From: Streptomonospora litoralis
GTDB taxonomy: Bacteria; Actinomycetota; Actinomycetes; Streptosporangiales; Streptosporangiaceae
DNA length: 64,000 nt
Direction of reading: 5' to 3'
Assembly (NCBI RefSeq): GCF_004323735.1
Contig: NZ_CP036455.1
Span: 1,173,101 to 1,237,100, forward strand
In this document: positions 22,614 to 52,881 of the stretch, one piece after another
How the letters are laid out: every line of letters begins with the position of its first letter
Position numbering within the stretch: the stretch's first letter is position 1
Position numbers and translations under genes: made by a program
Notes under the pieces: generated by a model
Databases searched by the model: none
Told to the model about the DNA's origin: nothing
Seen by the model: the letters and a program-made list of their open reading frames with translations, nothing else

Positions 22614-23531
22614 GTGAGCCGCAGTTACGACTGCGCTGACGTGCAGGGGCGCAGCGACGGCATCGCCGACGCGGCGTCGACCGTGCGCCGGGGCGAGCTG
22701 GTGGTGCTGCCCACCGACACCGTCTACGGTATCGGCGCCGACGCGTTCAGCCCGGGTGCCGTCTCGGCGCTGCTCGACGCCAAGGGCCGCGGCCGCGACA
22801 TGCCGCCGCCGGTCCTCGTGGGGTCGATGCGCGCCGCACAGGCCCTCATCGAGGACCTGGGCAACTACGGCCAGGACCTGATCGAGGAGTTCTGGCCGGG
22901 GCCGCTGACCATCGTGTGTGCGGCCGCTCCGAGCCTGTCCTGGGACCTCGGCGACACCAAGGGGACGGTCGCGGTGCGCATGCCGATGGATCCGGTCGCC
23001 CTGGAGTTGCTGAAGGAGGTCGGCCCGATGGCGGTCAGCAGCGCGAACCTTTCGGGGCACCCGGCGGCCACGACGGCCGACGAGGCGCAGAAGCAGCTGG
23101 AGGACAGCGTCGCGGTCTACCTCGACGGCGGGCCCCGCGACGACGACACGCCCTCCACCATCGTGGATCTCACCTACGCCGTGCCGCGCGTGCTGCGCGA
23201 CGGCGCCGTCTCGGTGCAGCGTCTGCGCGCGGTCTGCGGCACGGTCATCGGCGTGCCCAAGCGCCGCTCAGCGGCCGTGGAGGACAGCGGCGAGGAACAG
23301 CAGGACGAGGCCGCCCCCGCCGCGAGTCCGGGAGAAGCCGAAGTAGGGGAGGCGGCTGAGGGCCGCGGGGGCGCGGCTGAGCGTCCGGACAGCCCGTCGG
23401 GAGCCGCATCCGCGCCAACCGGTGAGACCGCCGCCGAGACCGCCGCCGAGTCGGCGGCGTCGACCAAGGAGGCCGACTCCGGGCCAGCGGACAACCCGAC
23501 CGACGAATCCGGCCGGGGAACCTCCTCCTGA
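22614..23531 (+). CDS. L-threonylcarbamoyladenylate synthase (Sua5/YrdC family)
   Basis: This family makes threonylcarbamoyl-AMP from threonine, bicarbonate and ATP for the t6A modification at position 37 of ANN-decoding tRNAs. Residues 1-215 form the YrdC domain, with LPTDTVYGIGADAF, KGRGRDMPPPVLVG and the SSANLSGHPA loop. The last 90 residues (from about 216) are a low-complexity Ala/Glu/Gly/Pro-rich tail without the Sua5 domain; it is unusual and likely disordered. GTG 22614 fits the family start though the ribosome binding site is weak. A small hairpin (CCGCCTTCGGCGG) follows the stop. Confidence 0.93.
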   Translation: MSRSYDCADVQGRSDGIADAASTVRRGELVVLPTDTVYGIGADAFSPGAVSALLDAKGRGRDMPPPVLVGSMRAAQALIEDLGNYGQDLIEEFWPGPLTIVCAAAPSLSWDLGDTKGTVAVRMPMDPVALELLKEVGPMAVSSANLSGHPAATTADEAQKQLEDSVAVYLDGGPRDDDTPSTIVDLTYAVPRVLRDGAVSVQRLRAVCGTVIGVPKRRSAAVEDSGEEQQDEAAPAASPGEAEVGEAAEGRGGAAERPDSPSGAASAPTGETAAETAAESAASTKEADSGPADNPTDESGRGTSS

Positions 23532-23540
23532 CACAGCCTT

Positions 23541-23679
23541 CCGCCTTCGGCGGCGGTTCTGGTCTGTTGTGGGGTCTTGTCGGTCTGCTGGGTGGCGGGT
23601 GGTCTTGACTGAAAGGCGGCGGCGAGGGCGGCGGTGGGCTGGGCCTGTGGTCGTCGGGTCGGGTGCTCGCCGGTGGTCC
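23541..23679 (-). repeat. Inverted diverged copy of the 142-bp repeat unit
   Basis: The reverse complement of this stretch aligns with the tandem unit at 24662 across most of its length. It shares for example GGCGAGCACCCGACCCGA, AGGCCCAGCCC and GACCACCCGCCACCC, with roughly three quarters identity by eye. It lies directly after sua5, opposite in orientation to the array. Confidence 0.75.
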
Positions 23680-24030
23680 ATCCGGCGGGGCAGCGACGGC
23701 AGGGGCGGCGCCGGGCCTGCGGTGGTCGAGCCGGTGGTCACCGGCCCCGGCCGCGGTGGTCTGAGCCGGGAGCGCCGCGCGGTTGTCGGCGCGGGCTCGA
23801 CGCGGAGCTCTCGGCGGCCGCCATGGGGGCGGATTGGGAGCACGAGACGCACGTATGTGCGCCGGTATCCGCCTCGGTGTCGCCCCGAGGTGCCACCCTC
23901 GCACCGTGATTCCGTGATACGAAACAACACGGGGTGTTTGTCCGCCAATGCCCGAGTTCTCGGTGGGCTCGCAGCCGCGCTGCGGGGGCGGTGGCGCACG
24001 AGGCGCACTGAATGGCGCGAAAGCAGCCCT

Positions 24031-24115
24031 GAGGTCAACTTTTCGTGCGTCTCGTGGCTACGGCGCCCGCCGAGGCCGCCCGCAAAACGGGCATAGGTTC
24101 CCAAAAGTCCACCTC
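24031..24115. repeat. Short segment with 13-bp imperfect inverted ends
   Basis: GAGGTCAACTTTT at 24031-24043 and AAAAGTCCACCTC at 24103-24115 pair at 11 of 13 positions and flank about 59 bp. It could be a miniature inverted-repeat element or chance; no second copy was noticed in the window. Confidence 0.3.
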
Positions 24116-24321
24116 CTCGGGTAGCGGGGCAGTCGGCGGCCGCGCCTGGGCGCAACGAGCAACGTGTTGTCGCTCCCCGGCCCCCGATCCGGCGCACCAC
24201 CGGGCCGCGCGGGCGCCCGCGACCGCGCCCCGCCGCGCGGCCTCCGGCCGGTGCCGGCCCGATCGCAACATGGCGACACCCAGCCGGCCCACCGGCGCCG
24301 GTAGGTCCCCTATGCCGGTCC

Positions 24322-24411
24322 ATCCGGCGATGACCGCGAACTTATGGCCGCGGAATACGCTTACCTGCGACCATAAGTTCACGATAGACGGGCCAAGCCG
24401 CGCCGAGTCTG
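24322..24411 (+). repeat. 90-bp dispersed repeat, copy 1
   Basis: This block is 83/90 identical to 52759-52848. It contains an 11-12-bp hairpin stem (GAACTTATGGCC with GACCATAAGTTC) around a 19-nt loop that itself carries a GCG/CGC mini-stem. A conserved tail, CGATAGACGGGCCAAGCCGC, leads into GCCGAGTCTG. Its AT-containing core contrasts with the surrounding GC-rich DNA. The right end runs into a 56-bp palindrome. Confidence 0.9.
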
Positions 24412-24459
24412 TCTCCAGGGCTGGATTCGGCGCCGAATCCAGCCCTGGAGACAGACTCG
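24404..24459. repeat. Perfect 56-bp palindrome
   Basis: Positions 24404-24431 are the exact reverse complement of 24432-24459, centred on GGCGCC within ATTCGGCGCCGAAT. The first 8 bp are the end of the 90-bp repeat, so the palindrome is a mirror duplication of the element's right end plus 20 bp beyond it. No spacer and no T-run are present. Confidence 0.95.
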
Positions 24460-24661
24460 ATGGCACCGGTGCCGCCCAACGCAGGGTTTTAACCAGGCAG
24501 CGGCCGCGGGTTCAGGGGGTGAGTGCAACACCGGCTCCGCACGGAGGTGTTGTGATGAATACCCACCCCCGGGGGGCGGCCCCCGCCGGCCGCCGCAACC
24601 GGCGGGCACCGGTACCGATGTCCGCGGGCCTGGCCCCGCTGCCGCCGTCGCCGCCTCGTCG

Positions 24662-25235
24662 GCCGCCGTCACCGGCGAGCACCCGACCCGATGGGCACCG
24701 GCCCAGCCCTTCGCCGTCCTCGGCGCCGCTTTTCCGTGCAGACCACCCGCCACCCGGCAGGCCGACAAGGCCGCCCAGCGGACCCGAGCCGCCGCCCCCG
24801 CTGGCCGCCGTCACCGGCGAGCACCCGACCCGATGGGCACCGGCCCAGCCCTTCGCCGTCCTCGGCGCCGCTTTTCCGTGCAGACCACCCGCCACCCGGC
24901 AGGCCGACAAGGCCGCCCAGCGGACCTGAGCCGCCGCCCCCGCTGGCCGCCGTCACCGGCGAGCACCCGACCCGATGGGCGCAGGCCCAGCCCTTCGCCG
25001 TCCTCGGCGCCGCTTTTCCGTGCAGACCACCCGCCACCCGGCAGGCCGACAAGGCCGCCCAGCGGACCCGAGCCGCCCCGCCGGCCGCCGTCACCGGCGG
25101 GCACCCGACCCGATGGGCGCAGGCCCAGCCCTCCACCGTCCTCGCCGCCGCCTTTCCCAACGACCGCCCGACACCCGGCAGACCAGCAAGGCCACAGCAA
25201 GGCCGCCCAGCAGACCCGAGCCGCCCCTTCGTCGG
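24662..25235 (+). repeat. Tandem array of 142-bp units (three good copies and one degenerate)
   Basis: Units begin at 24662, 24804, 24946 and 25084, giving periods of 142, 142 and 138 bp. The first three are almost identical, with differences such as CACCGG versus CGCAGG after GATGGG. The fourth is diverged and slightly longer. Because 142 is not a multiple of three, the frame shifts each unit, which argues against a repetitive protein. Confidence 0.93.
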
Positions 25236-26023
25236 GCGCGCCCGCCCGTGCGCAGGTCGGGCGCCGTTCACCCGGTGAAGGCGCGGCGATCGCGTCCTGC
25301 CTCAGCCGCCCCCGGCTTTCGACCCATGGCCGTCCGCGGCGCTAAAAATGCGCAAAGACTGGCGGCGCCGCAATCGGCGTCGGCTACGGAACGCGTTCGA
25401 GCCGGGATGCGCCGGCCCGGGTGCAGCGGGGACGGCGTCCGGCTTTGCAGACCGGGCTCCTCGCGAGTACGCCAAAGCGCGAAACAGTTCGGCGGTGGCG
25501 GCCCGGCCCGGGGTCCGCGGTCGGCCGGGAGCCCGGATATCCCGGCCCTGCGCAGGGTCTGTGTCGACCGTATGCCGTCGTGCGGCCGCTTCGGCGAGAT
25601 GCCCCAGAAGGCGGAGTGGTGTGCGGCGCCGGGTGTCGCGGTCGGCTCCCGGCCCCTTTCCGGCTGCCGCGCCTGCCGCCGCCGATGTCCCGACTCTTCA
25701 GTGGCACGTCGCACATTTTTCACTCTGCGTGGCCGCACGGTCCTGCCGCGCTGCATCGGCGGGTAGTGCTAGGTTCGACTGCACCGCGGTCTTCGAAAGC
25801 GGCAGCCGTGCCCGACATCGCTCGTACCGCGGTCGCGATCGGCCGTCCGCGCTTGGTGCGCGCAGCGGTTGGTGGCAGACCGCCGTTCAGCCGATAGCCG
25901 GCTCGCGGTCCAGCCGATCCGGCGACCGCCGAAGCAGAAGCCGTCAGCCCAGCGCCGAACCGCCGACCGCCCCCGTCGGCTCCCCGCCGTCGGCGCGCAA
26001 CCGAGGAAGGCATCTGACACGCC

Positions 26024-27211
26024 GTGCGTGAGTATGCGCTCACCTTCGTCATCGCCGTGGCGGTCACCTACCTGCTGACCCCCTTCGTGCGGCGAGCGGC
26101 GATCGCCACGGGTGCCGTGCCTCCGGTTCGCGATCGCGACGTGCACTCCGAACCGATCCCGCGCATGGGCGGGATCGCCATCTACGGCGGCTTCGCCGCG
26201 GCGCTGCTGATCTCCTACCGGCTGCCGCACCTGCAGGACGTCTTCGTCTACAACACCTGGCGGGGCCTGCTCCTGGCGGGCGGGCTGATCATCGTCATCG
26301 GCATCATCGACGACCGGTGGGGCATGGGTCCCATCCCCAAGCTCGCCGGCCAGACCGCCGCGGCGGGCATCCTGGTGTGGTCGGGCGTGCAGATGCTGTG
26401 GCTGCCGCTGCCGGGTACCCAGTTGTCGCTGGGGCCGTGGCTGGGCGCACTGGTGTCGGTGTTGATGATCGTGGTGACCATCAACGCGGTGAACTTCGCC
26501 GACGGCCTCGACGGCCTCGCCGCGGGGATCGTGGCCATCTCCGCGTTCGCGTTCTTCGCCTACTACTACGTGGCGGCCGTCGACCAGGGGTTCGAGCGGC
26601 AGTCCTATCCGGCGATGATCGCGATCATCCTGGCCGGGGTGTGCATCGGGTTCCTGCTGCACAACTTCAACCCCGCCCGTGTCTTCATGGGCGATACCGG
26701 ATCGATGCTGATCGGACTCATGCTGACGTCCATCACCATCACGGTGACCGGCCAGTTCTACCCCGACGGCCGCACCAGCGTGCACGGCATCGCCCTGTTC
26801 TTGCCGGTGTTCCTGCCGCTGCTGGTCATCGCACTGCCGCTGGCCGATCTGGTGCTCGCGGTGGTGCGCCGCACCATGGCCGGCAAGTCGCCCTTCGCCC
26901 CCGACAAGAAGCACCTGCACCACCGGCTGCTGGAGCTGGGACACTCCCACGCCCGCGCGGTGCTGCTGATGTATTTGTGGGCGGCCATCATCGCCTTCGC
27001 CGCGGTTTCGCTGTCGGTCTTCGACACCCCGTTCGTGGTGCTGACCGTCACCATGCTGGTGGCGGCCTGCGCAGTGGGCCTTATCACCCTTCCGCGGCTG
27101 CGCCGCCGCAGCGCAGCCCGCGCCCGCGCCTCCGCCGCCCGCGCTAAGGCCGGTGACCGCGAGCCGAACTCCCCGCCTTCCGCAGCCTCGTCGTCGGGCT
27201 CCGCGGAGTAG
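26024..27211 (+). CDS. wecA: Decaprenyl/undecaprenyl-phosphate GlcNAc-1-phosphate transferase (WecA/MraY family)
   Basis: This integral membrane enzyme transfers GlcNAc-1-phosphate from UDP-GlcNAc to a polyprenyl phosphate, starting cell-wall glycan linker assembly. The 395-residue protein has about ten to eleven membrane helices, the family loops DVHSEPIPRMGG, GIIDDRWGMGPIPKLAGQ, NAVNFADGLDGLAAG and RVFMGDTGSM, and the cytoplasmic HLHHRLLELGHSHARAV segment. The C-terminal 40 residues are polar and Ala/Arg-rich. The position between sua5 and the atp genes is as in mycobacteria, where the homologue is wecA/rfe. GTG 26024 is the best start, although AGGAAGG lies 13 nt upstream. Confidence 0.92.
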   Translation: MREYALTFVIAVAVTYLLTPFVRRAAIATGAVPPVRDRDVHSEPIPRMGGIAIYGGFAAALLISYRLPHLQDVFVYNTWRGLLLAGGLIIVIGIIDDRWGMGPIPKLAGQTAAAGILVWSGVQMLWLPLPGTQLSLGPWLGALVSVLMIVVTINAVNFADGLDGLAAGIVAISAFAFFAYYYVAAVDQGFERQSYPAMIAIILAGVCIGFLLHNFNPARVFMGDTGSMLIGLMLTSITITVTGQFYPDGRTSVHGIALFLPVFLPLLVIALPLADLVLAVVRRTMAGKSPFAPDKKHLHHRLLELGHSHARAVLLMYLWAAIIAFAAVSLSVFDTPFVVLTVTMLVAACAVGLITLPRLRRRSAARARASAARAKAGDREPNSPPSAASSSGSAE

Positions 27212-52682: not shown

Positions 52683-52758
52683 TCCGTGTTCAAGAACGCC
52701 GGGCTGCTGTGCGGCCTTGTTGGGGCCGCCGCCCGGTTGTCGGCCCACGAATCGGCCT

Positions 52759-52848
52759 ATCCGGCGATGATCGTGCACTTATGGCCGCGGAATGCGCTTT
52801 CCTGTGGCCATAAGTTCACGATAGACGGGCCAAGCCGCGCCGAGTCTG
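52759..52848 (+). repeat. 90-bp dispersed repeat, copy 2
   Basis: 83/90 identical to 24322-24411 with no gaps. The hairpin GCACTTATGGCC/GGCCATAAGTTC is retained: one stem position mismatched in copy 1 is paired here and another pair is lost. It is followed at once by a stretch matching the start of the 142-bp unit. Confidence 0.9.
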
Positions 52849-52881
52849 CCGCCGTCACCGGCGAGCACCCGGCCCGGTGGC
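52849..52881 (+). repeat. Partial 142-bp-type unit joined to the 90-bp repeat
   Basis: From 52850 the sequence GCCGCCGTCACCGGCGAGCA and the following CCCGGCCCGGTGG match the first 33 bp of the 142-bp unit at 24662 with two substitutions. The rest then diverges. Confidence 0.75.

Follow-up and report, generated by a model that had tools for sequence, protein, structure and literature searches.

The tandem array of 142-bp units located between the sua5 and tagO-like genes of Streptomonospora litoralis probably forms the right arm of a foldback-like transposable element, one of many copies of a non-autonomous family that an IS5-type transposase would move in trans. The window analysed is a stretch of 64,000 bp of the chromosome (NZ_CP036455.1, positions 1,173,101 to 1,237,100). 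Mobility of the element is suggested by comparative evidence, namely a dispersed family with a strict order of arms, termini kept by some of its copies, placement between genes, borders at stop codons and absence from the corresponding sites in congeners. A complete copy would consist of an IS5-type terminal inverted repeat (TIR), a number (n) of minus units, a loop that often bears a strong hairpin, a number (n) of plus units and a second TIR.

The copy between sua5 and tagO and its genome-wide family

The array was placed by TRF at 24661-25193 (period 142, 3.8 copies, 94% matches, score 898), while an ungapped comparison gave units starting at 24654, 24796 and 24938 (100, 97 and 95%) and a diverged fourth at 25076 (66%). 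The three near-identical units and diverged fourth unit of the original prediction are real. The inverted relative, which had been put near 23541-23679, was also found, at 23549-23675, where it is 83% complementary to the array units over 127 nt in the ungapped comparison. In a profile search the minus unit lies at 23555-23676, a plus half-unit at 24593-24657 and the plus units at 24666-24791, 24808-24933, 24950-25075 and 25088-25223. The element begins about 20 bp after the sua5 stop. The features are as follows:

22614..23531, + strand: sua5/tsaC gene, upstream neighbour (TIGR00057, L-threonylcarbamoyladenylate synthase, E 5e-55)
23549..25225, no strand: whole element copy, two inverted arms and core (outer limits approximate)
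23549..23676, - strand: left arm, a single full unit, reversed (83% complementarity to right-arm units; profile match)
23677..24592, + strand: core (loop), 916 bp, without reading-frame signal (matches in 30/30 other cores compared)
24338..24380, + strand: hairpin GAACTTATGG...CCATAAGTTC inside the core (retention, DNA fold z = -3.06, alignment)
24404..24459, + strand: perfect palindrome of 56 bp in the core (fold z = -11.07)
24593..24657, + strand: right arm, half unit (profile positions 2-65)
24666..25075, + strand: right arm, three near-identical units, period 142 (TRF, ungapped comparison, profile)
25088..25223, + strand: right arm, outermost unit, diverged (ungapped comparison, profile)
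26024..27211, + strand: WecA/TagO-like glycosylphosphotransferase gene, downstream neighbour (TIGR02380, E 1.5e-40, below the model's cut-off)
52683..52850, + strand: second window copy, internally deleted (TIR at the TAG stop of a predicted gene, unit end, core hairpin)

No genes are predicted inside the copy next to sua5 by the codon model made for this analysis, and a TIR was found at neither of its ends in a search allowing up to two mismatches. The suggestion of a decayed element thus came close to the mark for this copy. Copies would decay through the loss of ends and through deletions in the loop, and the window copy would have lost both of its ends. The original prediction had discounted a repeat protein from the period of the array, and this holds: the unit is 142 bp, the copy has no predicted gene, and gap lengths in the alignment of cores show no excess of multiples of three (162/833). 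A CRISPR array was likewise rejected, the 142-bp units being contiguous and having no unique spacers.

A search for further copies had been proposed, and the unit has many matches across the genome. At least 88 were obtained at E <= 0.001 (40 of 640 first-look candidates being scored), which is far above chance. An iterated profile search on the window and 35 regions outside it, taken for their unit matches, identified 150 units in these 36 sources. In 31 of them the order is minus units, a core of 295-916 bp and plus units, while in the remaining five one arm was not found. The shared cores and the constant order indicate that the array and the inverted copy, which had been treated as separate relatives, form one element together with the intervening DNA, and are its two arms.

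The abundance of the family was estimated from a systematic sample that was blind to the repeat, consisting of 60 blocks of 20 kb, one every 95 kb (1.2 Mb). This sample holds 46 whole or broken clusters with 120 units, making up 2.7% of its bases, and extrapolation to the 5.72-Mb chromosome gives about 220 clusters. Both arms are present in 22 of the 46, with the minus-then-plus order in 22/22, and this proportion corresponds to roughly 100 two-armed copies genome-wide. An enriched set of 1.49 Mb, in which repeat-selected and TIR-selected regions were added to the systematic blocks, contains 93 clusters. Both orientations are held by 58 of these, and minus units, core and plus units follow one another in 58/58. 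The two-armed clusters (n=58) have a median length of 1128 bp (range 357-1951 bp) and two to nine units; an outlier of 2158 bp represents two copies merged around a gene. Exact unit counts may be off, as the published assembly was made from nanopore and Illumina reads and, in the portion of its report that was available, the repetitive regions are stated to have been corrected manually (PMC8448680).

Comparison of 205 full units from 67 copies gave a mean identity of 83.6% for pairs within one arm of a copy, 78.6% across the two arms of a copy and 78.1-78.9% for units of different copies. Of the 205 units, 53 have their nearest neighbour in the copy to which they belong (50 of these in the same arm), whereas shuffling the labels gave 3.1 such units on average and never more than 10. 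Units thus tend to resemble most those of their own array, suggesting that arrays are homogenised or expanded locally. Arms may grow, shrink and become homogenised by unequal recombination or replication slippage, either of which could have given rise to the three near-identical 142-bp units of the window; with identities of 95-100%, these look like a recent local expansion.

Termini, insertion sites and relatives in other genomes

Comparison of the outer flanks exposed a TIR on some copies, with the consensus (C)TAAGCCGTGTTTAAGAA. A search of the S. litoralis genome with GCCGTGTTTAAGAA (<=1 mismatch) gave 44 matches (24 forward, 20 reverse), and its reversed control gave 0 forward and 0 reverse. 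In the enriched set the TIR (<=2 mismatches) was found at one end at least in 35 of the 93 clusters, a figure inflated by 20 loci having been chosen by their TIR, and at both ends in 15. It is detectable in only 6 of the 46 clusters of the systematic sample, suggesting that the ends of most copies have been truncated or have diverged, or that these copies lacked a TIR of this kind from the start.

A source for these termini is indicated by related genomes. Among 40 relatives and the own genome, AGCCGTGTTTAAGAA (<=1 mismatch) was found, besides S. litoralis itself, only in genomes G004 (13 matches) and G035 (five). All five matches in G035 bound a 1031-bp element, and in L082, the one copy whose ORFs were listed, a 302-aa ORF codes for an IS5-family transposase (NF033580, E 8e-73; PF13340, PF01609). 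The congener G005 has six relatives of this transposase (82-87% identity), each inside an element of 1031-1032 bp with ends GCCCTGTTTAAGAAG (one end having a single base different) and flanks of CTAG or TTAG. Across the five G035 and six G005 insertion sequences the ends read G(C/T)C(G/C)TGTTTAAGAA and the flanks are nearly always CTAG/TTAG, the exception in G035 being one that reads CTAA on the outside. The TIR ends of the copies in S. litoralis match the ends of these complete IS5-family insertion sequences. The G035 transposase has no match in the own genome at E <= 1e-20 and the IS5_3 transposase model (NF033580) none at E <= 0.001, the latter being positive in 8 of 14 control genomes. With no IS5_3-type transposase detected there, the family is probably stranded in this genome at present.

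Insertion targets of IS5 are of the YTAR/TA type. Among 51 TIR ends, which include at least one stray motif match, TAA or TAG directly precedes 35 (CTAA in 23 of these), and 14 coincide exactly with the stop codon of a predicted gene (11 TAA, 2 TAG, 1 TGA). Four of the five copies checked have TA on either side, which fits a TA target duplication; the arrangement C-TA-A...T-TA-G can also be taken for a portion of the inverted repeat. An IS5-family transposase supplied in trans may recognise the ends and insert the element at TA, mostly within NTAR. In a GC-rich genome NTAR sites would often be stop codons, and the first base of the element (A or G) would re-make the stop. The stop-codon borders of the TIR ends fit such a mechanism of insertion at TA within a stop codon that is then rebuilt.

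The 26024..27211 gene served as anchor on the tagO side for identification of the orthologous interval in congeners. No unit or core match is present in the sua5-tagO interval of any of the five (5/5), nor at seven loci with both genes in other genomes (L142-L147, L173). The gap between the two genes is about 490 bp in G001 and about 640 bp in G005, against about 2.5 kb in S. litoralis. When the flanks of another copy (L034) were joined, they aligned over their full length with G005 (73% identity) and as two blocks 225 bp apart with G001; in G002, G003 and G004 a clear match covers the left flank only and is uninformative. For copy L080 no empty site was found, the congeners having 1.7-4.2 kb between the flanks.

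With regard to other features of this interval, it measures about 3 kb in both G002 (L231) and G003 (L230), with open frames in G002 that include one of 506 aa. In G004 it contains an unrelated tandem array with a period of roughly 320 bp (L229, 2759-4043), the copies of which match each other also in inverted orientation. Upstream of tagO in the window, the stretch 25334-25397 around GGCGCTAARAAWGCGCAAAGACTGGC has matches of 76-80% in each of the five congeners, as an island separate from the conserved DNA closer to tagO.

In other genomes, arms homologous to these enclose different loops. A search of 250 genomes of the family at E <= 1e-7 gave arm matches in at least 7, including S. litoralis itself, from 4 of 68 genera; this is a lower bound with three candidates scored per genome. 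In G004, of the same genus, nine loci from the match list have both arms, with half-units of about 72 bp. The core of these is common within G004 (82-90% in most of the pairs listed, 76% with L235). BLAST matches between it and the own-genome cores are short, none of the 12 listed out of 56 being over 40 bp, and the own core profile has weak matches of 53 and 102 bp at two loci. G012 belongs to another genus; its arms follow the same order around other loops, which have matches of <=40 bp to the own-genome cores. At one of its loci (L244) the 32 bp outside both arms form an inverted repeat of identical sequence, which starts TCCGGCCCACAACACCGAAAGTCC and may represent another kind of terminal repeat for this genus. 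In a further genus (G096 and G042), 77 arm matches form 51 clusters, of which 21 are two-armed and 19 of those 21 have a single unit per arm; the arms end at a conserved ...CCCAGC(A/G)GAC. In G044, from a fourth genus, the G096 arm is matched weakly four times, and one locus (L327) is two-armed. The core profile has no match at five loci of G096, G042 and G044. Arms would thus be kept between lineages, with loops and outer ends being exchanged.

These relatives also bear on the nature of the true ends. It is possible, if less probable than movement by an IS5-type transposase, that the arms themselves are the ends, that another enzyme moves the element and that the IS5-like TIR was added in the lineage of S. 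litoralis. The arms of G096 and G042 would be consistent with this, keeping the same order in 21/21 two-armed clusters with no IS5-like TIR within the 60 bp beyond their ends, as would the 40 of 46 systematic-sample clusters with no detectable TIR. No such TIR is seen outside the arms of copies from G004, G012, G042 and G096 in the flanks listed. TIR and arms mostly occur apart in G004, where only one (L093) of 12 TIR loci read has arms nearby, with the motif lying between them. However, the TIR of S. litoralis sits at the outer edge of the arms, often at stop codons, and matches the termini of complete IS5-family elements from two relatives, which argues for the IS5-type route. The link to IS5 is accordingly one that copies with kept ends support in S. 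litoralis, and it is unsupported in the other genomes.

Four of the TIR loci in G004 (L096, L102, L104 and L108) look like small armless elements of about 154-483 bp with GCCGTGTTTAAGAA at one end and GTCCTGTTTAAGAA at the other, the latter with one change in two of the four; these ends resemble those of the G035 insertion sequence.

Gene context, core and hairpin

Gene calls were made with the codon model mentioned above, as opposed to a published gene finder, and gave 1194 genes (75% coding). Overlap with predicted genes is below 1% in 88 of the 93 clusters of the enriched set. The five exceptions are a pair of copies enclosing a gene, two clusters with 2-3% overlap, one with a stray match to the motif within a gene, and a fragment at a block edge. 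Just one of the 93 contains a predicted gene, which two neighbouring copies appear to flank. The gene pairs around 56 two-armed clusters are convergent in 24 cases, co-directional in 28 and divergent in 4, compared with 205, 689 and 196 of all 1090 adjacent pairs, corresponding to an excess of convergent pairs (binomial p 3e-5) and a deficit of divergent ones (p 0.02). Operon-internal pairs are part of the baseline, which makes the ratio of convergent to divergent pairs the fairer comparison.

The core of the window copy matches all 30 other cores compared, at about 75-91% over the main blocks, with 14 of these in plus and 16 in minus orientation relative to it. Its palindrome (24404..24459) has matches of 89-98% in eight other cores and of 100% at two further places. 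As a hidden gene the core was rejected, having, over 21 cores of at least 700 bp, long open stretches in all six frames with no clear preference, and an origin from a plasmid or phage was rejected also, the one match found being to a Variovorax plasmid over 22% of the query and phages giving none.

None of the 73 core-bearing copies in the enriched set lacks core positions 661-680, not even the 27 copies retaining fewer than 400 core positions. The segment folds as a hairpin, with a z-score of -3.06 in the window copy under DNA parameters; for the second window copy z is only -0.84, over a shorter stretch. Among some 60 scorable copies, two sequence subfamilies of the segment can be told apart, with about 40 and about 20 members, which have the outer stem in common. 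Across the alignment (~60 scorable of 72 aligned) compensatory cells number 55, where shuffles give 23.6 on average and 34 at most, and paired cells exceed the shuffles likewise. As the compensatory changes largely separate the two subfamilies, they represent few events and the covariation is weak. Its retention hints that the hairpin is more than passive cargo.

Strong hairpins are common in the loops, although not universal, and their sequence varies between genera. In S. litoralis the longest stem beats all 15 shuffles in 19 of 31 cores; for comparison, stems of >=15 bp occur also in 33 of 230 intergenic regions free of the element. Elsewhere the longest loop stem, reaching up to 33 bp, beats all 40 dinucleotide shuffles in 13 of 17 loops (eight from G004, six from G012, two from G096 and one from G042, L235 of G004 being excluded). 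Two matches to the hairpin-B motif (<=3 mismatches) at L239 and L241 of G004/G012 lie outside the loop spans and were left out. Near-perfect hairpins with stems of 31-33 bp are present in the loops of L328 and L331 (G096) and L329 (G042); these have the motif GTTGATCTCGG in common and differ in stem sequence apart from it.

A further possibility is a host function, in which the element would be a domesticated structure under selection, serving as a terminator or insulator between convergent genes or as a nucleoid or recombination site. This appears unlikely. The 24 convergent against 4 divergent flanks, the presence of the hairpin segment even where most of the core is gone, and the surplus of paired and compensatory cells over shuffles would all suit it. 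However, insertion into stop codons would give the same convergent bias, the compensatory changes mostly split two subfamilies, loops differ between genomes, and the presence of the element is patchy, being absent from the interval of five congeners and found in at least 7 of 250 genomes of the family.

A non-coding RNA, as put forward in the original prediction, or an RNA family repeated over the genome is less probable still. Under DNA parameters, good single-strand folds are obtained for parts of the core, but no Rfam family matches the window copy at gathering score (a relaxed scan gave one match, E 0.45, below gathering), loops vary between genomes and the number of units varies between arms. 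An assembly artefact is scarcely credible: lengths of arrays could be wrong in a nanopore assembly with repeats reported, in the accessible part of the source, as manually corrected (PMC8448680), but dispersed copies in strict order, with homologues in other genomes following the same order, speak against it.

Comparison with known mobile elements

Miniature inverted-repeat transposable elements (MITEs) are under about 600 bp in size. The median of 1128 bp for the 58 two-armed clusters lies above this. The family agrees with a MITE in two respects: the end-keeping copies have TIRs matching autonomous insertion sequences (the G035 and G005 elements), and no transposase gene lies inside, the gene in 1/93 clusters apparently lying between two copies. 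As for mobilisation by IS5, targets of the YTAR/TA type are seen (35/51 TIR ends after TAA or TAG), and a cognate transposase was not found in the same genome in the NF033580 and G035 protein searches.

The nearest bacterial precedents, going by the available part of their description, are BrickBuilt and MITE464/PgRS of Porphyromonas gingivalis, which are MITEs with IS5 ends and internal tandem repeats (PMC4596501). Like the present family, BrickBuilt is bacterial, non-coding and intergenic, with IS5-family TIRs and tandem repeats of variable number, and according to the same partial account most copies are without one or both ends (both in 4/19) (PMC4596501). It differs in having one direct array of 23-nt units between a leader and a tail, where the Streptomonospora element has units of ~140 bp (or half-units of ~70 bp) in two inverted arrays around a loop, and in its abundance, given there as 19 copies and 0.44% of the genome compared with ~220 clusters and 2.7% of the sampled DNA here (PMC4596501).

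In layout, the closest counterparts are eukaryotic foldback (FB) elements and the FB-like Tm1 and Galileo. As far as the consulted portions of the reports describe them, these have inverted arms of variable length, composed of tandem subrepeats, around variable interiors, and a Galileo copy in D. willistoni has ~140-bp tandem repeats in its arms (PMC3169594, PMC4168063). Long inverted arms of tandem subrepeats around a loop are found both here and in the relatives, those of G096 and G042 mostly having one unit per arm. In the same sources Tm1 is eukaryotic and Mutator-like with a 9-bp target duplication, and Galileo is eukaryotic and P-like with target duplications of 7-8 bp (PMC3169594, PMC4168063). 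By contrast, the Streptomonospora element is bacterial, the ends seen match an IS5-family element as opposed to the Mutator or P superfamilies, and the target looks like TA; only the layout is shared.

It may tentatively be proposed that the family is a bacterial counterpart of the foldback elements, a modular superfamily extending over at least three and probably four genera, in which arms are inherited while loops, unit number and termini are swapped and where the loop hairpin, as a cruciform or single-strand substrate, works in amplification or loop exchange. If the reading as a foldback-like element with IS5-type ends is right, the foldback layout of flies, plants and nematodes would have arisen in bacteria too, convergently. 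The family occupies a sizeable share of the intergenic DNA of this genome and would suggest how a transposon does no harm to its host when it inserts into a stop codon and restores it, while minisatellite growth inside a bacterial mobile element could be followed across strains. The words 'tandem' and 'foldback' do not occur in the main text of a 2024 review of prokaryotic MITEs, and among the open-licence papers listed the titles and abstract openings gave no such repeats in Streptomonospora or Nocardiopsis and no bacterial foldback elements.

Repetitive extragenic palindromes (REPs) are 20-40 bp in length and associated with RAYT transposases. REPs and BIMEs, going by partial accounts, resemble the Streptomonospora family in their numerous extragenic copies, alternating orientation and palindromic nature; the latter differs in its ~140-bp units, common core and IS-type ends in some copies. 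The RUP element of Streptococcus pneumoniae, in so far as the available sections of its report describe it, is also non-autonomous (108 copies), with TIRs like those of a resident IS and a TA target, but is 107 bp long with IS630-type ends, and arrays are not mentioned in those sections (PMC2229807).
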